Origin: Pseudalkalibacillus salsuginis
Lineage (GTDB): Bacteria; Bacillota; Bacilli; Bacillales; Fictibacillaceae
Direction of reading: 5' to 3'
Assembly (NCBI RefSeq): GCF_021646685.1
Contig: NZ_JAKJHW010000002.1
Span: 682,001 to 746,000, forward strand
Length of the DNA stretch: 64,000 nt
A program made the position numbers and the translations under genes. Below the pieces are notes generated by a model. That model did no database searches, was not told the DNA's origin, and saw nothing but the letters and a program-made list of their open reading frames with translations. This document shows, piece by piece, positions 3,828 to 15,041 of this stretch. Position 1 is the stretch's first letter. Each line of letters opens with the position of its first letter.

Positions 3828-4670
3828 ATGAATGAACAGACCCTGAAAATAAATGAAGTGGACATTTGTACTGAGAGTTTTGGAAATCCAAAAGACCCTG
3901 CTGTCCTTTTGATCATGGGTGCGATGTCTTCATTAGATTGGTGGGATGAGGAATTCTGTCTCCGCCTCGCTGATCAGGGAAGATTCGTTATACGGTACGA
4001 TCATAGGGATCTGGGACGATCAACTACTTATGATGCGGGTACTACAAATTATACAATAACTGATCTCGCTGAAGATGCAGCAGGGGTCCTCGATGCTTAT
4101 TCTTTAAAGCAGGCTCATATCGTTGGAATGTCTATGGGCGGTATGATCGGCCAGATTCTTGCCTTGAGGTATCCGGAGAGGGTATTAACACTTACGTTGA
4201 TTGCATCGAGTGTGTTCGGAACTGAGATGGAAAAACTGCCTCCTATGGATCAGAAAATTCTGGACCACCATGCGCAAAGTGCTTCTATAGACTGGTCTAA
4301 TCGGGAGGCTGTCATCGCCTATCTTGCCGATGGTTGGAAAACGTTATCTGGTTCCAAAACCTATGAGAAGGAAAGAATGTATAAACTGGCAGAAAGGGAG
4401 GTTGATCGTGCCAAACAGCTGCCGAGCAGATTTAATCATGCGATGCTGCAAGGTGGAGAAGCCTATTACGATAGAATGGGAGAGATCAGCGTACCTGTTC
4501 TCGTTATCCACGGTACGGAAGATCCTGCCCTGCCATACGAGCACGGACTTGCCCTTGCAAAATCCATCCCTCATGCCGAATTAATACCTCTTGAGGGATC
4601 AGGTCATGAAATTCATAGTGAAGACTGGGACCAAATTATAGAGTCAATTGTAAAGCTAAACAGCCGATAA
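3828..4670 (+). CDS. Alpha/beta hydrolase
   Basis: This 280-residue protein has the classic alpha/beta-hydrolase layout. There is an oxyanion-region MGAMSS near 30 and a DHRDLGRS loop near 58-65. The nucleophile elbow GMSMGG gives Ser102, HGTEDPALPYE near 228 holds the acid, and GSGHEIH near 256-262 holds the catalytic His. It most resembles cofactor-free esterases or the haloperoxidase-like (RdmC/EstT-like) branch, but the substrate cannot be named. The ATG has ribosome site GGAGGAGAAAAAGC. It is monocistronic, with a repeat-bearing 3' region. Confidence 0.85.
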   Translation: MNEQTLKINEVDICTESFGNPKDPAVLLIMGAMSSLDWWDEEFCLRLADQGRFVIRYDHRDLGRSTTYDAGTTNYTITDLAEDAAGVLDAYSLKQAHIVGMSMGGMIGQILALRYPERVLTLTLIASSVFGTEMEKLPPMDQKILDHHAQSASIDWSNREAVIAYLADGWKTLSGSKTYEKERMYKLAEREVDRAKQLPSRFNHAMLQGGEAYYDRMGEISVPVLVIHGTEDPALPYEHGLALAKSIPHAELIPLEGSGHEIHSEDWDQIIESIVKLNSR

Positions 4671-5108: not shown

Positions 5109-8100
5109 TCAATCGTTTCCAAAAAGATCTTTCACAATAAAATAGGATTGCTTCAAGCGTTCTTCATATTGCGGGGAATTCCAATTCTGCCACTTGTACC
5201 CATTCATTTCAACTAAAACATCATTCTTTATTGAAGGGAATGAATCGATCACTTGTTGATCTTCATCAAAGAATAATACGCCAATATTGATTTGTTCGAT
5301 TTTCGTGCTTGCCTCCAAACCGTCTGAATACAAATTCCCAGTAAACTCTTTTTGACTTGGGTCCTTTGCATGGAGCAATAGCCAAGGAATCCGAAGTTCA
5401 ATCAATCCATCCTCATTGACATGATAATCTGCCAGTGAATCATAATCGGCTGAATCAGGGTTTCCATTTCCAATCTTCAATTTCCCTGTTTCATAAGATT
5501 GGAAAGGAATGACACGGTTCTGTATAGTGATGGACAGTTCCTTATTCAAAGCATATCGCAGTTTTGAGAATATCCCGCTGTTTTTCTCAGGTAATGGCGG
5601 TTGCGGTTGAATCAACTCCAATTGATGACCATAATGATATGTAAATGCATCATAATACGCATCAACCAAGATGCTTGATTCCTTCTCAATTAGGTTGATA
5701 AGGAAATCAACACCATTCGAAAATTTCGTCTGTTCAAGTCCAACAATGAAATGATTTCCCTGATCCGGGATGACGTCCAAAAGAATCTTCGGGTAGCCCT
5801 CCCTTTCCTTGTCATAATCGATTCGAAGGTACAGATACCTTTCATCATGGTCAACATATAGTGCCTTCAGGTGTTCATCCATCTTGGCATAAAGCGCTTT
5901 TTCATTCCAATCGTCCGTCGCCCCGTCAACCTTGATTTTATGCCGATCGAAACTTAATAAACCGAATTGTTGTTCATTCGTTTGGGCATTGGACCAATAT
6001 GGTCTGCGCTCTGGATTGTCATAATCCTTCGTATTCCATGTCCGTTTGAACCACTCATCCTGCCAGGTAAAAATGAGTCCACCAAGAAGCTGTTCTGCCA
6101 TGATATCTTCATAAAGATGACGAATAATGACCCCTTGTTCTTTTTCTGACAAGAATCCTTGGTTCCAACCAAATGGATTTACATGTGTCAGCCCCCTTGA
6201 ACTCGGGACTCCGAATTCCGCCACCAGAATGGGAAGTCTATGGGCGTTATGCAAATCTGAAAGGTAGGCAGCATAGCTGTTCTTTTCACCACGATGATCG
6301 ACATAATTCTGATAAGATTCCTCGTAATTGAAAAAGTCTGGATAATACGGATAGACGTGGTAGGAAGCGAATTGATCTGTCAGATCCATATTGCCCTTCG
6401 TGTAGATGACATTAGGATCGACGCTGACCAGATCCTCGTTTTCATCAGGTTCGGATGGATGCTCCAGAATATCCGTCGTTACCCAATTCGTAAAGCTTAT
6501 CGGTCTGATCCAGTTATAATGATCAACTTCATATTTGACGAGCGTATCCATTTGTTGCGCGAGCCAAATTTCAAACGGCTGTGCATCCTTCGTTTGAAAG
6601 TACTGACCATGATAATCCTCCATCGTGGCGTGTACTTCGTTCGTATTCTTAACCATGTCCGGATACCATTCGATTCCCAGGATCCAACCTATTACATACT
6701 GGGATATATCTGCTTGATAAACACCTGAGGCATGTCCTCGTTCTACCTCCACGATTTTATTTCCGTGGACGACATCGACAATCTTCCTGATCTCATCCTG
6801 GAATTCCTCAAGATTTTCAGGCTTATAGGCATCTAGTGTTTCTTCCAGGTTTTTTTCATCAATCCAGACGCCATGAAAGATGTAGATTTTCTCTTCGTGC
6901 TTTTCATTGTATCGTTTCAAAGCCTTATAAAATCCTGGAGGATGAAGCGTATAGACACGTATGCTGTTCGCATTCATTTCCCCGATCTGTACAAGCCAGT
7001 CGTAATATTCCTCCTCGGTTATCGCTGCTTCACCTGGGAAATGACCCGGTTTTCCCATTCCCATATTGACGCCTTTGATAGGGAATGGAACCCATTTATC
7101 GTCTTTTAAGATTTCAAATGAATCGTTCTCGATCCGGGAAGTGTATTGAAGTTCCTCAGCCTTCGAAACGGATGGTGTCGATCTGCTTTCAAACCGTTCC
7201 AGGATCGCCTCCACCATTGGCACATAGGTTGACCAATAGAACGCATCATCCGAATATTTCTGAGCGATCTTATATACATGATCCAGCCCTTTCATCTGAT
7301 AAAAGCTTGGCACTTTCTCAATATCATTGAAATCTCCTGCAAAATAATAATTGGATGATGCACCATTTTCTTTTGTCAGCACAGCGGCAAACTCAAGAGG
7401 AATCTGATGATCATTCAACACTTGTTTTCCTCTGTTTGTAAGCTCCCAGTCATAGTTTGCCAGCACCTTGCTTCCATTTTTCGGGGTGACGATGTCAAAC
7501 CAATATTGATAATCAGGGCTTTTCTTCAGATTAAATTGTCCTTGTCCTTCTTCTGTAAAGGTTAGATTGATCCCGCTTCCTTTTACATGAGTATTCTTTT
7601 CAAGGACCACGACTTCATAGTCGATGTCATTCACTAAAATGAATCCTTCTCCGCTATAATCCCATGTCTCCTGGAATTCATCCAAAATCCACTGTGGAAT
7701 TTCCCTATTCTTAACAGGATCAAGCTCATTGAAATATCGCCCGATCCACCCTGACCAATCAACTTCAAGATAGTCTGTCACTGAATTTCTTACAGCTTCA
7801 CTTGTCGGAGAAGCGAATGTATTGAACTCCGCAATGAATAGACTTTTTTCATTTTCATTCAATCGCGCTACAATCGAGTGCCATTCTTTTTCTTCCAGTC
7901 CGCCATGAATCTGTTCTGAGCGGGAGCCTTCACGCTTTTTCTTAAACCATGGCAGGTCCTCTTCATATACACCATAGGTATCTGCCAAATAGATGACATC
8001 ATATTCAGATAGATCCGCCGGAAGCGGACGAGTCGTATAATCTTCTTTTTTTTCATTTGGAAAAAAGCCATAGTAATCCTCATTGGCATTGTATGACTCA

Positions 8101-8291
8101 TTCTCCTTCGTTACATAATTTAAATGATTCAGAACCCATGTAACTCCTTGGTGTTCCCGGTATGTTTCAGTCGGAACTGTCTTATCAAAAATAGCAACCT
8201 TTAAATTTTTCGCAGAATCTAAATGCCATACCACGATCGGTGTTAGGATAATGGATACGAGAAACAATCCTAGAATATAAAAACGCTTCAT
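5109..8291 (-). CDS. Large exported glycoside-hydrolase-like protein of a polysaccharide operon
   Basis: The start is ATG 8291 (MKRFYILGLFLV), preceded by AAAGGATC, giving about 1060 residues; the frame is open further upstream but the extension lies inside the glycosyltransferase gene. Residues 1-22 form a signal or anchor helix. The N-terminal region (about 25-330) resembles no enzyme I can name. A central part from about 390 to 790 looks like a TIM-barrel glycosidase, with GVNMGMGKPG, ILGIEWYP and VAEFGVPSS, the last placing a Glu where clan-A glycosidases have the nucleophile. The C-terminal region after DGATDDWNEKA resembles a family 9-type carbohydrate-binding fold. ATGA overlap with the glycosyltransferase implies coupling. 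It probably trims, hydrolyses or binds the polymer made by its partner. Confidence 0.7.
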   Translation of the reverse strand: MKRFYILGLFLVSIILTPIVVWHLDSAKNLKVAIFDKTVPTETYREHQGVTWVLNHLNYVTKENESYNANEDYYGFFPNEKKEDYTTRPLPADLSEYDVIYLADTYGVYEEDLPWFKKKREGSRSEQIHGGLEEKEWHSIVARLNENEKSLFIAEFNTFASPTSEAVRNSVTDYLEVDWSGWIGRYFNELDPVKNREIPQWILDEFQETWDYSGEGFILVNDIDYEVVVLEKNTHVKGSGINLTFTEEGQGQFNLKKSPDYQYWFDIVTPKNGSKVLANYDWELTNRGKQVLNDHQIPLEFAAVLTKENGASSNYYFAGDFNDIEKVPSFYQMKGLDHVYKIAQKYSDDAFYWSTYVPMVEAILERFESRSTPSVSKAEELQYTSRIENDSFEILKDDKWVPFPIKGVNMGMGKPGHFPGEAAITEEEYYDWLVQIGEMNANSIRVYTLHPPGFYKALKRYNEKHEEKIYIFHGVWIDEKNLEETLDAYKPENLEEFQDEIRKIVDVVHGNKIVEVERGHASGVYQADISQYVIGWILGIEWYPDMVKNTNEVHATMEDYHGQYFQTKDAQPFEIWLAQQMDTLVKYEVDHYNWIRPISFTNWVTTDILEHPSEPDENEDLVSVDPNVIYTKGNMDLTDQFASYHVYPYYPDFFNYEESYQNYVDHRGEKNSYAAYLSDLHNAHRLPILVAEFGVPSSRGLTHVNPFGWNQGFLSEKEQGVIIRHLYEDIMAEQLLGGLIFTWQDEWFKRTWNTKDYDNPERRPYWSNAQTNEQQFGLLSFDRHKIKVDGATDDWNEKALYAKMDEHLKALYVDHDERYLYLRIDYDKEREGYPKILLDVIPDQGNHFIVGLEQTKFSNGVDFLINLIEKESSILVDAYYDAFTYHYGHQLELIQPQPPLPEKNSGIFSKLRYALNKELSITIQNRVIPFQSYETGKLKIGNGNPDSADYDSLADYHVNEDGLIELRIPWLLLHAKDPSQKEFTGNLYSDGLEASTKIEQINIGVLFFDEDQQVIDSFPSIKNDVLVEMNGYKWQNWNSPQYEERLKQSYFIVKDLFGND

Positions 8292-9718
8292 AATGATGAT
8301 CCTTTCTTGGTAAACCCAGCTCGTTGCATATTTCCCCATTCTTTCCGTCTTAATAAGAAATGGAAGAACCCTTCTAATCTCCATAGCAACGTTAGAGGTC
8401 TAAACCAGAAAACCTCCGTCAGGGACATGAAAATCAGGTGTACGACATCGCTTGTCCGCGGGTAGATATCTTTACTCCATGCATCCAATAATACCGAAGC
8501 AGTGGAAAATACAGCTCCATATAAAATGAAGAGGAGGGTGAGCAGTATCGCAAATTCATAATACATCCCACCAAAGAAAAAGGCGATGATAATATAGACA
8601 TACCCTCCTAGTTCAATCAGTGGCCCTAGACATTCTACCAGCCAAAAGTATGGGAATGAAATCATCCCGATCGCTCCATATTTCGGATTGAATGTCATTT
8701 TTTTATGTTTCCAAAGACTTTCGACCAATCCTTGATGCCATCGTCTCCTTTGCCTCCTTAACACAGCGTAGCTTTGGGGAGCTTCAGTCCAGCAAACAGG
8801 GTCTGGTACGAATTGGATTTGCTTCTTCAGCTTCTTTTCTTTCAGAAGACGATGCAGTTTGACGACCAACTCCATGTCTTCTCCCATTGTATGTTTTGAA
8901 TATCCGCCAACCTCTACGACCCATTTCTTTGAAAACACACTGAAAGCTCCTGAAATGATAAGGACGAGATTGAATTTGCTCAATGAAATCCTTCCCATCA
9001 TGAAGGCCCGTAAATACTCGATGACTTGCATGACGACAAGATGATTTTTTGATAAATTAGCTTCAAAAACAGAACCAAGTTTAACGTGATGCCCGTTTGC
9101 AATACGGACATTTCCGCCAACCGCGATCACTTCATCATTGGAGGATACGATTGGATTCATGACACGCAAAAGGGATTTCTCATTAAGAATCGAATCTCCA
9201 TCAATCGAACAAAAATAAGGGTACCTGGCCAAGTTGATTCCAGCGTTCAGCGCGTCTGCTTTTCCACCGTTTTCCTTTTCAATCAACCATAAATTTTGAT
9301 TAACATTAGATTGGTATATATGACGGATCGGTTCTGTCGGAATCTCTTTTCGTACGACTTTCTCAACCCTATTCATATGGAATTCACTTATCAGTTTCTG
9401 TTGTGTATCATCTGTCGACCCATCATTCACAATGATGATCTCTGTTTGTGGGAAGCGAAGACTTAACAAAGAGTGAATCGTATCAAGTACTCCTGCTTCT
9501 TCGTTATAAGCCGGGACGATAATCGTCACTGGTTTCATTAAAGCCGCGTTGAGGTTCCCCTCATCTATCCCGTCTTTATCCAGCTGATAGTCCTTTCGTA
9601 TATGGAGGAAAGCAATCGTCAACATCACTGTATAGGATAGAATGACGACAACCATATAAATGATGATCACATTTCCGAAGAAGAGGCTAAGAAGCTCCAT
9701 TGGACGATCGATACTCAT
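8288..9718 (-). CDS. Membrane glycosyltransferase family 2, processive type
   Basis: The 476-residue protein has one N-terminal helix (about 15-38), a cytosolic GT-A domain, then three to four C-terminal helices, as in PgaC, hyaluronan and cellulose synthases. All motifs of processive GT2 enzymes are present: VTIIVPAYNEE (64-74), NDGSTDDT (98-105), SIDGDS with the metal-binding DxD (D173, D175), GED at 279-281 as catalytic base, and Q323-x2-R326-W327. It should polymerise a nucleotide sugar at the inner membrane face and export the chain. It is third in a four-gene operon, 8 bases after the HEAT gene and overlapping the hydrolase gene. The sugar is unknown. Confidence 0.88.
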   Translation of the reverse strand: MSIDRPMELLSLFFGNVIIIYMVVVILSYTVMLTIAFLHIRKDYQLDKDGIDEGNLNAALMKPVTIIVPAYNEEAGVLDTIHSLLSLRFPQTEIIIVNDGSTDDTQQKLISEFHMNRVEKVVRKEIPTEPIRHIYQSNVNQNLWLIEKENGGKADALNAGINLARYPYFCSIDGDSILNEKSLLRVMNPIVSSNDEVIAVGGNVRIANGHHVKLGSVFEANLSKNHLVVMQVIEYLRAFMMGRISLSKFNLVLIISGAFSVFSKKWVVEVGGYSKHTMGEDMELVVKLHRLLKEKKLKKQIQFVPDPVCWTEAPQSYAVLRRQRRRWHQGLVESLWKHKKMTFNPKYGAIGMISFPYFWLVECLGPLIELGGYVYIIIAFFFGGMYYEFAILLTLLFILYGAVFSTASVLLDAWSKDIYPRTSDVVHLIFMSLTEVFWFRPLTLLWRLEGFFHFLLRRKEWGNMQRAGFTKKGSSL

Positions 9719-9726
9719 TTATTCAT

Positions 9727-10773
9727 TCAAGATCCTTTCTTAAGGATTTCATTTACCATTTCAATGGCAAATTTATCCCTCGACGTTTGAATAAAGGCTT
9801 GCAGCTTTTCTTTTCCATTTTTGATGCTTCCGACTGTTTTCGCTGCCTGATTACGGACCCACCAAGACTCATCCTCCAATAGGATCTTGAAGCAGGAAAA
9901 AGTCTCATCCAAGGGTAATCGGCCTAATAGCTTGGTCACCATCAACCTTTCTTCCCATAAAGATGAATGGACAAAATGCAGATAAGTCTCGGGGTTTATG
10001 ATCCACCCACTCTCATAAATCGCTTTCAACAATCGGATACGTATTTCAGCTTCTTCATGATGTAACAGTCCTTCTAAGAAAGGGACATAATCCGTCTCTC
10101 GCTTCAGCCCTAACGTATCAATGATTGAAAATTGACAGGGTCTCGGTACTTCATCGAACACCTGCAGCAATCTTTCGAGATGGTCCTGCTCGAAATTGAG
10201 TACTAGTTTTCGATATTCATGTTCTGAAAATAGGACTGGTTCAATGATGATTTTCTCTATGCATGAGTTAATGTCGAATTTCGAATAGATTTTAAGTAAT
10301 TGTAACCACTCTTCCTTTGAACATTTTTTAAGTTCTTGTTTTTTGCAGTCGTCGAGAAGAATGTCAATTTGAAAATCAGAAATCCGGTATAATGCGTTCA
10401 TCCTTGCACTCCACTTTCTTCGCTTAAGCTGATCACCATAATAGTGACTCAGGTATTGATTTGAAAAACTTCTTATTTTTTTGTGGATATCTGGATTCGA
10501 TATATTCGCCAAATAGCTTGATAATATTTTCTCTATTACTCGAATCTCATCTTCATTTTCAGGAACCAATCTTTTATCTGCTCTTTCTCCTTTATTGATG
10601 AGATAGTGATACCAGCCATGTTGGATCTCCTTTAAATACTTCTCGTCACGTCTGATCTGTATGTTTTTTCTCTTATGCAGAATGATGACATATATGGCTA
10701 AACACATAAGGATCAACAGGTTGACGATAATTATTCTGCTTAATATCTCAATCGATAAGCCGATCATACCCAT
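9727..10773 (-). CDS. Membrane-anchored HEAT-repeat protein
   Basis: The 348-residue protein has one N-terminal membrane helix (about 7-31), followed by basic HKRKN, then a cytosolic helical region. The last 130 residues contain repeated helix pairs of HEAT type (for example DYVPFLEGLLHHEEAEIRIRLLKAI and the segment around SWWVRNQAAKTVGSI). HEAT repeats are protein-binding scaffolds, so it probably links the regulator encoded upstream with the glycosyltransferase downstream. The ATG lies 10 bases inside the upstream gene. No catalytic motif is visible. Confidence 0.75.
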   Translation of the reverse strand: MGMIGLSIEILSRIIIVNLLILMCLAIYVIILHKRKNIQIRRDEKYLKEIQHGWYHYLINKGERADKRLVPENEDEIRVIEKILSSYLANISNPDIHKKIRSFSNQYLSHYYGDQLKRRKWSARMNALYRISDFQIDILLDDCKKQELKKCSKEEWLQLLKIYSKFDINSCIEKIIIEPVLFSEHEYRKLVLNFEQDHLERLLQVFDEVPRPCQFSIIDTLGLKRETDYVPFLEGLLHHEEAEIRIRLLKAIYESGWIINPETYLHFVHSSLWEERLMVTKLLGRLPLDETFSCFKILLEDESWWVRNQAAKTVGSIKNGKEKLQAFIQTSRDKFAIEMVNEILKKGS

Positions 10774-11675
10774 AACCTTTCCAGTGTTCTTTTCAATTGT
10801 GCTTCAAGCAGGCGAATGTTGAATGGTTTTATGATGTAATGATCGACTCCGCTCTCGTATGCATAAATGATATCTTCTTCTGAGTTTCTTTTCGTCATCA
10901 TATAAATGATGAATCGTTTGTTATTCGGGAGCTTCCTGATCATATGCAAAACTTCCAAACCATTCTTTCTTGGTAAAATATCATTCATGATGATCAGGTG
11001 TGTATGACTTGTGGAAGACCAATCTGATTGAAGAAAGTCCTCCCCCTCTTGGAACATCCTTATAAGCAGCTGAAACTGATCCGAAGATATGTTATGTAGA
11101 GTAGCAGTCAGGATATTCGTAAGGATTTCATCTTCCTCGATGATACTTACCTTAACTTCCTCCATGTTCTTTTCTTTATAATCAATGACATACTCAATAA
11201 CCCAATCTCCTGTTCTTGAAGAATTGGCTAACGCTTGTTGTCCTTTGTCCAACAAATCTTCAAATTGTACATCGCCATTCCCGATCTCAGCGACACCCGA
11301 AGAAAATATCAGATCATAGATCAGGAATAAGCGATCATCACTATCTTTTACATCGTTAAATATACGTTCTAAGAACGCTTTTGCTTCTTCTTCTTTACTT
11401 TGTGATAAAATGACAGCCCATTGATAAGGTTTTGACAATTTGACGACTACGTCTGTCTGTCTGATCTTACTTACTAAATAGGATGTAATCCCTTGATCGA
11501 TGAAATCCTCGTCTTCCTTCCGGAAAATCGTCTGACTATGAACCGTCAGGAAAATGGCTGTCATGGAGGTTTTGGAACGTTCGACATTTGCCTTCAATAC
11601 ATCGAAGAATCGCACTGCCTGTCTCTCATCAAGCAACATGCCTCCTGATTGATTACTTTCCCGGATTTTGTCCAC
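10764..11675 (-). CDS. Degenerate GGDEF domain fused to an atypical receiver domain
   Basis: This 303-residue protein starts at GTG 11675 with ribosome site GAGGTG. Residues about 15-160 follow a GGDEF fold, but the signature GG[DE]EF is replaced by KPYQW (82-86) and the later SIGVA motif reads SSGVA (125-129), so it should not make c-di-GMP. Residues about 174-300 form a receiver domain with the acidic pocket (E180, E181, D182), T261 and K283 of PFN intact. The phosphorylated Asp position is Asn231 (IIMNDILP). It has no DNA-binding or output domain. It heads the polysaccharide operon and is probably a ligand-sensing or protein-binding regulator of the synthase. Confidence 0.8.
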   Translation of the reverse strand: MDKIRESNQSGGMLLDERQAVRFFDVLKANVERSKTSMTAIFLTVHSQTIFRKEDEDFIDQGITSYLVSKIRQTDVVVKLSKPYQWAVILSQSKEEEAKAFLERIFNDVKDSDDRLFLIYDLIFSSGVAEIGNGDVQFEDLLDKGQQALANSSRTGDWVIEYVIDYKEKNMEEVKVSIIEEDEILTNILTATLHNISSDQFQLLIRMFQEGEDFLQSDWSSTSHTHLIIMNDILPRKNGLEVLHMIRKLPNNKRFIIYMMTKRNSEEDIIYAYESGVDHYIIKPFNIRLLEAQLKRTLERLWV

Positions 11676-12366
11676 CCTTCATACACCTCATTTTCTCTTA
11701 TCTACGTTTATTGAAGAAAGACCATTTATAATTCTATCGGCATCCAGCTCTTTTCTTATAAAGTGACTTCATCCTCCCATTTTTACACCCAATCTGATGA
11801 CGGAACTGATAATAGGCTGTTGGGGCACATCAAGTCACCAACCTATATAAATTCGGAAGATTATGTATAATGTGTTTTATGGCTCTCACCCATTATTTCG
11901 GCTGGTTTGAATATAAATTCAAGCATGGACTATGCTGCTAAGACGAAAATGTCAACCAAATTAAAAAGGTTTTACCCTGGCTTGCCACCCATCGATTGCT
12001 TTTAACAAACCTCGCTGAAAAATAGGACTTTACTCACAGAACTAGATACTACTAATTATTACAATTTTTTTTATTCAATACAATCTTTATGTCTTTAAGA
12101 AAGGCAGTCTATCGTATAGATTGAATTCGGAAATATAATCGCTCTCTGCGGGCAATTTCTCGCCTATGTTATTTCATCATATCCCGCTAGCCTCGTATGT
12201 TACTTATCTACTTATTTTTCGTAACACTTCCTCTTAACTGATACAAGGGTCCTATGTTTTGTCCTCGAATTGGTATATTAAGGAACATGGTCGTATAGAC
12301 ATCTATACCAGTTGTTGCTACACTTTTCCATGTAAGCGTAATCCATTGAAAGGGAGTGGACACGAT
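11676..12366. other. 690-bp gap between divergent operons
   Basis: This gap must hold the promoters of the polysaccharide operon (minus) and the EEP-GH3 pair (plus). On the minus strand TAGAAT near 11735 could be a -10, but no good -35 accompanies it. A hairpin candidate pairs GTTGG (11819-11823) with CCAAC (11838-11842). I see no convincing gene or known riboswitch. Confidence 0.4.
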
Positions 12367-13272
12367 TTGAATGTTTTCAAGTTGATGCTACGTGTTGCTG
12401 TATTGGGAATGCTCATCTCCGGTATGGTCGGTGGATCCGGAACCGTATTCGCCAAAGAGGATTCCACCGGTACAGAGGTAAATATCCGTGTCATGACGTA
12501 CAATATCCATGCTGGAGCCGGGTCAGATGGTGTGTATGACACTGAACGGATCGCCAAGGTCATTGAGGAGTCCGGTGCAGAGATCATCGGCTTACAGGAA
12601 GTCGATGTACATTGGGGAGCACGCAGCAACTATGACAACATCGTCAAAGACATCGCCGAGCAGCTGGACATGCATTATTTCTTCGCCCCAATTTATGATT
12701 TCGATCCTCCTTCAGAAGATACCCCTAGAAGACAATTTGGAGTAGCTGTACTTAGCAAGTATCCGATTCTTCAAGCAACTAACCACGAGATTACGAGACT
12801 TTCTACACAAAATGCCGAACCTAAACCGACACCTTCACCAGGATTTGCTGAAGCCATCATTAATGTGAATGGAAAAATCGTCCCTTTTTACGTCACTCAT
12901 TTGGATTACCGCGGTGATCCGACCGTCCGAATGATCCAGGTCGATGATATGCTGAATATCTTTGAGGATCAGGCTGGTGACAAGATTCTTGTCGGTGATA
13001 TGAACGCCATACCTAATGCACCAGAGTTGTCGCCGTTATTCGATAATTTCACTGATGCATGGAGCATCAACCCAGATGATTCGCCTGGATTTACATACTC
13101 CGCCCTTTCACCAAGCAAGCGAATCGATTACATTTTTACATCCGATAAAATGACTATACAACATAGCGAAGTATTATCTACACTAGCTTCCGACCATTTG
13201 CCTGTCATTGCGGACATCACTTTGGCCCGAGGAAATAATGGACCGATTTTGAAAGGGGATGAATTACCTTGA
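12367..13272 (+). CDS. Secreted endonuclease/exonuclease/phosphatase (EEP) family protein
   Basis: The start is TTG 12367, 9 bases after AGGGAG; the upstream in-frame extension to 12259 has no ribosome site. Residues 1-29 form a signal peptide ending TVFA. The mature part carries the EEP-fold motifs in order: MTYNIHAG, LQEVD (metal Glu), THLDYRGD, VGDMNA (metal-binding Asp and Asn), RIDYIF and SDHLPV (catalytic His). Such enzymes cleave phosphodiesters or phosphoesters with Mg2+; substrates range from DNA to phospholipids and inositol phosphates. Its stop overlaps the start of the GH3 gene (TTGA), so both enzymes are made and exported together. Confidence 0.85.
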   Translation: MNVFKLMLRVAVLGMLISGMVGGSGTVFAKEDSTGTEVNIRVMTYNIHAGAGSDGVYDTERIAKVIEESGAEIIGLQEVDVHWGARSNYDNIVKDIAEQLDMHYFFAPIYDFDPPSEDTPRRQFGVAVLSKYPILQATNHEITRLSTQNAEPKPTPSPGFAEAIINVNGKIVPFYVTHLDYRGDPTVRMIQVDDMLNIFEDQAGDKILVGDMNAIPNAPELSPLFDNFTDAWSINPDDSPGFTYSALSPSKRIDYIFTSDKMTIQHSEVLSTLASDHLPVIADITLARGNNGPILKGDELP

Positions 13273-15041
13273 AAAAGTTCTTTGCTAGAGCGACACTTTT
13301 GATGATAGCCATGCTTCTCTTCGTACCAAGTTTTGCAAATGCATCCTGGGATGACCCGACCAAGCCGGGTTGGGATGATGAAGAAGCGCGCAGAGGTTGG
13401 ATCCAGAATAAAATTCAACACATGAGCCTAGAGGAAAAGGTCGGTCAATTGTTTATGATCCATGTCTATGGACAAACACCTACCGATCCGAGTTATGAAG
13501 AGACCAACTTAAGGCGGAACCGTGGCGTGAAAAACTTCAAAGAAGCGATTGAGAAGTACCACATCGGGGGTATCATCTACTTCAACTGGACGGACAATAT
13601 CGGAACACCGATTGACTTCGGACAGGTCAATGCCCTCTCGAACGGGTTGCAGGATATCGCGATGGAGCAACGGATGCCGATCCCGTTGATGATTGCGACG
13701 GATCAAGAAGGTGGTGTGGTGGCCCGTGTGACAGAACCTGCTACGGTTTTCCCGGGGAACATGGCACTTGGCGCAACCAGATCTGCCGAGTATGCACGGC
13801 AATCTGCTGAAATCATGGGACTTGAATTGAAGAGCCTTGGCATCAATATGGATCTCGCTCCTGTATTGGATGTGAATATGAATCCGGATAATCCGGTCAT
13901 CGGGGTTCGATCTTTTTCGGAGAATCCTGATCTAGTAGCAGAAATGGGTGCCGCTCAAGTAACCGGATATCAAAATGAAAACGTGATGGCGACAGCAAAA
14001 CACTTCCCTGGCCATGGCGACACGGATGTGGATTCCCACTATGGTCTCCCGATCATCAACCATGATCTTGAGACGTTACACGAAGTTGATTTAAAACCAT
14101 TCAAAGCTGCGATCGATGCCGGAATCGATGCGATCATGCCTGCCCATATCGTCGTCCCCGCCCTCGATGATTCTGGACTTCCTGCCACATTGTCCAAACC
14201 GATCCTGACGGACTTGCTTCGTAAGGAAATGGGGTTTGACGGTGTCATCATCACAGACAGCCTAGGAATGTCCGGAGCGAATGTCGTTCCTCCCGATCGT
14301 GTACCGGTCGAGGCTTTCATAGCTGGAGCAGACATTTTACTGAATCCGCCTGATGTCCCACTTGCCTACAATGCGGTTTTGGACGCGGTGAAAAGCGGTG
14401 AAATTTCAGGGAAACGATTGAATGAGTCGGTCTTCCGTATCCTGGAGTTGAAGTTTAAACGGGGGCTATTCCATGACCCAAAGACACCTGAAGACGCGAT
14501 TGAAAATATCGGTCAAGAGGGGAATCTGGCGCTTGCAGACCAAATGACGGAAGACAGCATCACACTTGTAAAAAATGATGATGTATTGCCGCTTGATACG
14601 GAAAAAGATGTCTTGATCACAGGTCCTTCGATCGGAAATCCAGGAATGCTAGCTGACTTATTGTCGAAAAAGGGATACTCCGCAGCAGCATATGCGACTG
14701 GAACAAGCCCGACCTCGACCCAAATTGCGAACGCTGTCCAGCAGGCTGCTGATAAAGATACGGTAATTGTGACCGCTTATAGCGCAAATCTCAACAATGC
14801 ACAACAGCGGTTCGTAAAAGAATTGATGGAAACAGGTAAGGAAGTGGTCGTCGCCTCAATGCGGAATCCCTACGATATCATCGCATTTCCTGACGTTCAC
14901 GCCAATGTGGTGACCTACGGATTTCGGGATGTCTCGGTTAAAGCGCTTGCGAAAGTCATCGCCGGCGAAGTGAATCCTACAGGCAAACTCCCTGTCACCA
15001 TCCCAGACCTTTACGAATACGGTCATGGACTATCTTACTGA
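13269..15041 (+). CDS. Secreted glycoside hydrolase family 3, NagZ-like beta-N-acetylhexosaminidase
   Basis: The start is TTG 13269, after GAAAGGGGATG, overlapping the previous gene's stop. A signal peptide (1-25, ending ANA) directs export; no lipobox is seen. The NagZ signature KHFPGHGDTDVDSH spans 244-257, including the Asp-His acid/base dyad (D254, H257), and ITDSLGM places the nucleophile at Asp330. A second domain of about 200 residues follows. The enzyme should remove terminal N-acetylglucosamine from muropeptides or chitin oligomers outside the cell. Bacillus NagZ homologues are around 640 residues; this one is 590. A terminator follows. Confidence 0.9.
   Translation: MKKFFARATLLMIAMLLFVPSFANASWDDPTKPGWDDEEARRGWIQNKIQHMSLEEKVGQLFMIHVYGQTPTDPSYEETNLRRNRGVKNFKEAIEKYHIGGIIYFNWTDNIGTPIDFGQVNALSNGLQDIAMEQRMPIPLMIATDQEGGVVARVTEPATVFPGNMALGATRSAEYARQSAEIMGLELKSLGINMDLAPVLDVNMNPDNPVIGVRSFSENPDLVAEMGAAQVTGYQNENVMATAKHFPGHGDTDVDSHYGLPIINHDLETLHEVDLKPFKAAIDAGIDAIMPAHIVVPALDDSGLPATLSKPILTDLLRKEMGFDGVIITDSLGMSGANVVPPDRVPVEAFIAGADILLNPPDVPLAYNAVLDAVKSGEISGKRLNESVFRILELKFKRGLFHDPKTPEDAIENIGQEGNLALADQMTEDSITLVKNDDVLPLDTEKDVLITGPSIGNPGMLADLLSKKGYSAAAYATGTSPTSTQIANAVQQAADKDTVIVTAYSANLNNAQQRFVKELMETGKEVVVASMRNPYDIIAFPDVHANVVTYGFRDVSVKALAKVIAGEVNPTGKLPVTIPDLYEYGHGLSY

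Follow-up and report, generated by a model that had tools for sequence, protein, structure and literature searches.

Gene content and conservation of the locus

The window analysed here is a stretch of 64,000 nucleotides from Pseudalkalibacillus salsuginis (assembly GCF_021646685.1, contig NZ_JAKJHW010000002.1, positions 682,001 to 746,000 of the forward strand), and its minus strand carries a set of four genes that may form an exopolysaccharide operon. The first gene (10764..11675, GTG start) encoded a protein of 303 amino acids (aa) without membrane segment, in which a degenerate GGDEF half (about residues 11-165) is joined to a receiver half (about 176-303). It was followed by genes for a HEAT-repeat protein of 348 aa with one N-terminal hydrophobic segment (9727..10773), a family 2 glycosyltransferase (GT2) synthase of 476 aa that has catalytic motifs and, close to each terminus, hydrophobic segments (8288..9718), and an exported, anchored protein of 1060 aa composed of an N-domain, a barrel and a beta-rich C-terminal region (5109..8291). 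All four open reading frames (ORFs) were confirmed at the coordinates of an earlier reading of this DNA (the original prediction), which had also described them as overlapping or nearly touching: there is an overlap of 10 bp between the first and second genes, 8 bp separate the HEAT and GT2 genes, and the GT2 gene overlaps the exported gene by 4 bp, assuming that the latter starts at 8291. The mechanical ORF start of the exported gene at 8384 is probably too long, judging from the sequence; the start at 8291 was preferred because it gives MKRFYILG..., which is aligned with the starts in relatives.

The original prediction had staked its reading on conserved synteny in related genomes, and such synteny was found widely. 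The exported protein or its N-domain was present in 10 of 34 genomes of the family (own genome included), and the N-domain in 127 of 397 genomes of the order (about one third, from 49 of 135 genera) and in 15 of 398 genomes of a phylum-wide draw. A HEAT profile (E 1e-30) matched 146 of 397 order genomes, judged from their handles to be this draw again, and both proteins occurred together in 123 genomes, that is in 123 of the 127 exported-positive ones (Fisher test 1e-72, kinship not taken into account). Only G067, G075, G108 and G271 had an exported match without HEAT; the matches in G075 and G271 were weak and partial, and the HEAT match of G067 lay below the threshold applied.

For gene order we used 170 stretches, all retrieved with the exported protein or its N-domain as entry point: 10 first loci including the window's own, 80 places hand-picked for family spread and the best 80 of 281, with certain genomes present in two sets. 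HEAT and GT2 were contained in 130 of the 170 stretches, and in 109 a GGDEF-family ORF stood directly upstream of HEAT. Lysinibacillus, Sporosarcina, Halalkalibacterium, Pontibacillus and Paenibacillus are among the named loci carrying the set, which is conserved across the order. The strongest evidence that the four products act together is a three-part fusion in genome G464 (locus L120, 4986-9122), where one 1378-aa protein combined HEAT repeats (262-340 by Pfam), GT2 (484-947) and the exported N-domain (1006-1372), and where a GGDEF-family gene overlaps the start of the fusion by 4 bp.

Some observations weigh against such a constant unit. No GGDEF-family ORF was found directly upstream of HEAT in 21 of the 130 HEAT-GT2 stretches, some of which are contig ends. 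In Planococcus-type loci (L189 and similar Planococcus and Planomicrobium loci) the exported gene lies opposite to the GT2-HEAT strand and no GGDEF-family gene adjoins HEAT. The HEAT part of the L120 fusion was found with Pfam and missed by our own HEAT-family profile. It could be argued from the genomes in which the exported gene is apart from HEAT-GT2 or on the other strand that the genes stand side by side by chance and have no functional link, but the co-occurrence in 123 of 127 genomes (uncorrected for kinship), the three-part fusion and the overlaps of a few bases make this extremely improbable.

A plasmid search with the query gave three records, none with 80% query coverage. One locus, L137, from a close named relative, was labelled Arthrobacter beigongshangensis REN13, yet stood among Bacillota rows on the GT2 tree, and the genome is possibly mislabelled.

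The GGDEF-receiver protein as a predicted c-di-GMP receptor

Pfam detected the receiver and no GGDEF domain in the window protein, and at E values up to 1 it found GGDEF in only 8 of 32 relatives. We rejected the possibility that this silence means absence of a GGDEF domain, since profiles and structure matches detect it. A profile (A7) built from the N-terminal half of 32 short forms matched solved GGDEF domains, best DosC with E 1.1e-10, and hhalign aligned the short-form half to 22 active GGDEF domains from long relatives with probability 99 and E 7e-18. The structure model of the first protein (predicted local distance difference test, pLDDT, 90.9) was matched by Foldseek to GGDEF proteins and mostly CheY-like receivers. 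The degenerate GGDEF plus receiver of the original prediction was therefore confirmed, the former by profile and model and not by Pfam, the latter by PF00072 with 51 bits.

The GG[DE]EF motif is gone in the window protein, with KLSKPYQW at the aligned site. In the 32 short forms, R33, R72, D75 and R104 were the sole invariant columns of the GGDEF half, whose mean column conservation was 0.44. This quartet (R33, R72xxD75, R104) is our proposed I-site for binding of cyclic diguanylate (c-di-GMP). Counted over 106 non-duplicate loci (3 of 109 dropped as GT2 duplicates), with three fragment or receiver-only ORFs set aside, it was complete in 50 of 53 dead forms of the short type, in 8 of 13 of the long type and in 25 of 37 active forms; a form was called active if it had [GAS]G[DE][EQ]F, and 35 of the 37 active rows had GG[DE]EF. 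Alignment A5 held the window and 33 of 34 candidates (L214 excluded for length), A6 the window and 31 of 32 references (L205, an active long form, excluded) and A8 22 of 34 references.

According to the published passages, the I-site of PleD consists of the RxxD pair R359/D362 with R390 and with R313 of the neighbouring molecule (PMC7288161). In B. cereus PelD, alanine variants of R363, D366 and R395 are stated to have undetectable c-di-GMP binding (PMC7112168), and the spacing of 32 residues between R72 and R104 equals the reported R363-R395 spacing. The window protein thus has the GGDEF fold, the loss of GG[DE]EF and an RxxD with a downstream Arg, as in degenerate-GGDEF I-site receptors of the PelD, PssE and YdaK type, with R33 the least certain element. 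We infer that the first protein lost catalysis and is a predicted c-di-GMP receptor through its retained quartet.

Several points weigh against this assignment. The quartet was incomplete in three of the 53 short dead forms (L111, L136 and L140, the last a truncated contig) and in 5 of 13 long dead forms, and the dead GGDEF of L120 had no RxxD by eye; c-di-GMP sensing would thus not be universal in the set. In the 53 short dead forms E130, E97 and L102 equalled the quartet in conservation. The equivalent of PleD R313 in DgcR is described as not homologous in sequence (PMC8041772), which makes R33 as the counterpart of R313 the weakest match of the quartet.

The receiver half showed a second loss. 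EE replaces the DD acidic pair in the window receiver and Asn replaces the phospho-Asp, with an Asp next after this Asn, so that the acidic pair and phospho-Asp of a phosphorylatable response regulator were not found. The phospho-Asp position held Asp in 37 of 37 active forms, and in the 53 short dead forms it held Asn (47), Ser (3), Asp (2) or Glu (1), the acidic pair being often EE. By these residues the receiver is a pseudo-receiver in this lineage, and a role as phospho-sensor is unlikely. The original prediction had named the first protein as the sensor, a role strengthened by the retained quartet, but had missed the pseudo-receiver. Because mean conservation in the 32 short forms is higher in the receiver half (0.65) than in the GGDEF half (0.44), the receiver was probably kept for a role other than phosphorylation, and we suggest that it docks on the HEAT protein.

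Alternatively, the GGDEF-pseudoreceiver protein might be a structural adaptor only. The quartet would then serve folding or the binding of some other partner, and expression or substrate would control the synthase. This would agree with Ruoffia halotolerans, where a lone receiver-like protein of 137 aa (L198, 7145-7558) stands before HEAT, GT2 and the exported gene, as well as with the dead forms without RxxD and with the equal conservation of E97, L102 and E130 in the larger set. But the invariant residues of the 32 rows are exactly the ligand-binding quartet in a domain with mean conservation of 0.44, the complete quartet is commoner among short dead forms (50 of 53) than among active ones (25 of 37), and RxxD-bearing dead GGDEF domains of PssE, YdaK and B. 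cereus PelD are reported to bind c-di-GMP. We therefore consider an adaptor without ligand quite unlikely. The Ruoffia locus, which also weighs against a receptor in every member, was used once for the idea that the GGDEF part is lost when a genome drops c-di-GMP; this was not borne out, as the Ruoffia genome still encodes two GGDEF proteins.

As a marker for the system the receptor-half profile was not used. At E 1e-8 it matched 16 of 378 genomes of the phylum, and apart from the own genome and G582 the scores of about 36-45 bits were like those of ordinary GGDEF domains. In another locus (L091, minus strand), three receiver- or GGDEF-like ORFs (317, 328 and 154 aa) upstream of HEAT (12222-13256) replace the single gene.

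HEAT protein, synthase and exported protein

The HEAT protein matched PF13646 with 38 bits (best Pfam stretch 270-330), and a hydropathy scan found a single hydrophobic segment at 14-32, in agreement with the one-helix HEAT protein of the original prediction. We propose it as a relay or scaffold that links receptor and synthase. The relay to the synthase suggested by the original prediction would fit the gene order and the natural HEAT-GT2-N-domain fusion.

In the GT2 protein the motifs NDGS98, DGDS173, GED279 and QRRRW323 were present, as claimed before. Its best NCBIfam match was TIGR03937 (PgaC/IcaA) with 138.7 bits against a cut-off of 422.3, and it reached 35.5 bits with TIGR03030 (BcsA, cut-off 699.1). 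Pfam found no PilZ match in the GT2 of the operon. Chondroitin and hyaluronan synthases were also matched when the GT2 profile was compared with solved structures. From its family we propose that GT2 is both polymerase and transporter. Elsewhere in the own genome, at G000:C4:9942-10469 (L029), there is another GT2 of about this length (481-aa frame).

The exported 1060-aa protein carries an N-terminal hydrophobic anchor and had no Pfam match. Its family profile gave no match against the PDB at E 1. We did not take the silence of Pfam as absence of a glycosidase, because matches of the structure model find a glycosidase fold. The model (pLDDT 84.1) showed an N-domain (about 30-370), a TIM barrel (about 405-745) and the beta-rich C-terminal region, and Foldseek ranked a glycoside hydrolase (GH) of family GH157 first (E 7e-10), then enzymes of GH2 and GH5 type; the deacetylase Agd3 came 18th. 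The TIM barrel named by the original prediction is thus recovered, and the likeness to glycosidases on which that prediction also depended was found by the structure search. In enzymes of clan GH-A, one Glu follows strand 4 and another is at the end of strand 7. In the model E541 comes after strand 533-539 and E692 lies inside strand 688-693, and both were Glu in 112 of 112 full-length relatives, namely the exported proteins above 900 aa at the 130 HEAT-GT2 loci, duplicates included. A TIM barrel with two such Glu is as expected for clan GH-A, the strand numbering being our own. Against a close assignment, the model was poor at 414-423 and 744-775, and the top Foldseek TM-scores were low (0.23 by query, 0.44 by target) with root-mean-square deviation above 20 Å, so the barrel class is approximate. 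The protein is therefore described as glycosidase-like, approximately of clan GH-A type according to the model.

The N-domain, and not the barrel, is the constant exported part, since it occurs without barrel in G029 and G031, two genomes of the window's genus with the N-domain alone after GT2 and then a 594- or 593-aa protein, and in G027, with N-domain and a 595-aa neighbour in a stretch without GT2 and HEAT. These variant loci (L025:9391-12288, L026:1231-4122, L024:8915-11847) have an N-domain of about 365 aa before the protein of 593-595 aa. In the scanned copy of L025 this partner had weak PAP2 and tyrosine-phosphatase matches, both below the Pfam cut-off; L024 is the locus whose pair is without GT2 or HEAT.

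An anchored protein with a glycosidase-like barrel, and an N-domain that exists without barrel and may itself handle the chain, would also suit an operon for making or modifying a glycan of the cell wall or capsule that has nothing to do with biofilm matrix; the exported protein would then act as a transglycosidase and join chains to the envelope. This is unlikely in our judgement: known RxxD dead-GGDEF receptors act, as far as the published statements go, on exopolysaccharide synthesis, and no wall-anchoring model scored above its cut-off (Firmicu_CTERM 15.3 of 50 bits).

Proposed regulation and relation to known systems

Taken together, the four genes likely encode a c-di-GMP-gated, HEAT-scaffolded exopolysaccharide synthase. 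The cytoplasmic GGDEF-pseudoreceiver protein would not synthesise c-di-GMP and would bind it at R33, R72, D75 and R104, while its receiver half, probably no longer phosphorylatable, may dock on the membrane-anchored HEAT protein. The latter could pass the ligand-induced change to GT2, as might be expected from the fusion of HEAT and GT2 in one relative. GT2 would polymerise the sugar chain and, like other members of its family, push it through its own membrane pore. Outside, the anchored exported protein might cut, remodel or hold the chain with the putative E541/E692 site indicated by model and conservation.

In related loci the same HEAT-GT2-exported core would be driven by an active diguanylate cyclase within the operon, which has HPt-like and receiver domains and is encoded next to a response regulator and a histidine kinase. 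Long relatives such as L018 encoded REC-GGDEF-REC proteins (REC, receiver) that contain GGEEF and, at the N-terminus, a region resembling HPt (18 bits, below the Pfam cut-off), and in L018 genes for a response regulator of 121 aa and a histidine kinase of 958 aa came after the exported gene. By sequence, the window protein is a short relative of this HPt-like-REC-GGDEF-REC cyclase. A response regulator and a kinase were directly downstream of the exported gene in 28 of 29 testable active loci, against a regulator in 0 and a kinase in 1 of 59 testable dead-GGDEF loci. The original prediction, partly supported overall, had missed both this kinship with the long cyclase and the regulator and kinase of active loci that are missing at dead loci. 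The window version, without phosphorelay, would read c-di-GMP produced elsewhere in the cell. The own genome had five GGDEF matches over the cut-off (GG[DE]EF in three loci, SGDEF in one more), four EAL and one PilZ protein, so c-di-GMP is probably both made and degraded in this cell.

On the midpoint-rooted GT2 tree (99 rows) the window was placed in a group of 48 short and two long dead forms with support of 100, with L187 (G190) as its nearest locus; additional dead forms stood elsewhere, outside this group. The tree and the independent-pair analysis exclude L140 and rows with GT2 below 400 aa. The change would have run from active to dead, on a tree that is midpoint-rooted only. Some points argue for caution. 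A comparison of cyclase class with wiring over 2 to 4 phylogenetically independent pairs (starred branches) was not significant, and with so few pairs the link is a pattern and not a statistical proof. The wiring count takes only regulators no longer than 200 aa that lie within 300 bp, and excludes loci whose exported gene is placed apart or on the opposite strand and loci flanked by less than 4 kb; other receiver- or GGDEF-like ORFs occur further downstream at the dead loci L092, L111 and L119. The window gene was also examined for upstream traces of the lost HPt-REC part; tblastn with ten long forms gave nothing convincing (best E 0.014 over 19 residues), and such remnants were rejected.

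With some reservation, we lean towards an unnamed and widespread Gram-positive exopolysaccharide system with one HEAT-GT2-glycosidase core, which in some lineages is served by a phosphorelay-driven cyclase. Elsewhere, as in the window, the descendant of this cyclase, without catalysis, phospho-acceptance and kinase, would be a pure c-di-GMP receptor whose pseudo-receiver docks on HEAT, so that the producer became a reader at the same genomic position.

The set is best read as resembling the PelD, PssE and YdaK systems, in which according to the published passages polymer synthesis is turned on by a dead GGDEF that retains its I-site, in its way of working and belonging to none of them; YdaK, YdaM, PssE and PelD were compared by residue numbers and published statements. 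The yda genes encode BcsB-like (YdaN) and DUF2334 proteins, whereas Pfam and NCBIfam gave no BcsB-like or DUF2334 match among the four window proteins. The likeness to B. subtilis ydaJKLMN is a dead GGDEF with RxxD encoded beside polymer synthase genes: YdaK is described as a degenerate GGDEF protein that retains RxxD and whose gene belongs to a putative exopolysaccharide operon together with those of the synthase components YdaM and YdaN, and its R202A variant as abolishing c-di-GMP binding and interaction with DgcK (PMC7064775). According to the same source YdaK has four transmembrane helices, while the window receptor has none by hydropathy scan, is fused to a pseudo-receiver and would be linked to the membrane by HEAT. 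Listeria PssE, of pssA-E, is likewise reported as an I-site receptor with dead GGDEF, essential for exopolysaccharide, with an apparent Kd of 0.79 uM for c-di-GMP (PMC4125290). A HEAT protein, a pseudo-receiver and an anchored GH-A-like 1060-aa protein are not mentioned in the available description of the pss genes.

The Pel system uses PelF and PelG and has the TPR protein PelE as scaffold. The window set differs from it by a GT2 with own hydrophobic segments and by the lack of a PelG-like gene in the operon, and PF16963 (PelD_GGDEF) was weak in 4 of 32 members (best E 0.029) and not found in the window protein. The likeness to Pel of P. aeruginosa and B. cereus (pelDEADAFG), from the published statements, is in the degenerate GGDEF of PelD with equal R...D...R spacing and in a locus-linked hydrolase (PMC7112168). 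To PgaC/IcaA the likeness is a GT2, with TIGR03937 as its best NCBIfam match. Membership in the Pel, yda, PgaC or BcsA families was rejected, as cut-offs or defining features were not reached. From the YdaK, PssE and PelD systems the window set is separated by its soluble GGDEF-pseudoreceiver, its separate HEAT membrane protein and its anchored GH-A-like enzyme, and by sister loci with a catalytic cyclase and a phosphorelay. No description of the set was found by title or abstract among the open-licence PMC papers that our literature searches listed.

If our reading is true, a biofilm-type polymer pathway would be identified in many environmental bacilli, and c-di-GMP receptors would gain a new class whose predicted binding site is defined. 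The loci with active cyclase, dead cyclase and receiver only would then be a natural series for studying the change from enzyme to sensor.

A c-di-GMP riboswitch was rejected as an additional element, Rfam giving 0 matches at gathering score across the window. Promoter-like sites numbered 36 against 22.0 (standard deviation, sd, 4.4) in shuffles and terminator-like sites 10 against 5.0 (sd 2.5), and these excesses were given no interpretation. The closest flanking genes with Pfam matches, 3828-4670 and 12259-13272, are both on the plus strand. The divergent neighbours at 12259-15041 (plus strand) encoded a protein of the endonuclease/exonuclease/phosphatase family and a GH3 enzyme, each of which has an N-terminal hydrophobic stretch that by eye resembles a signal peptide.

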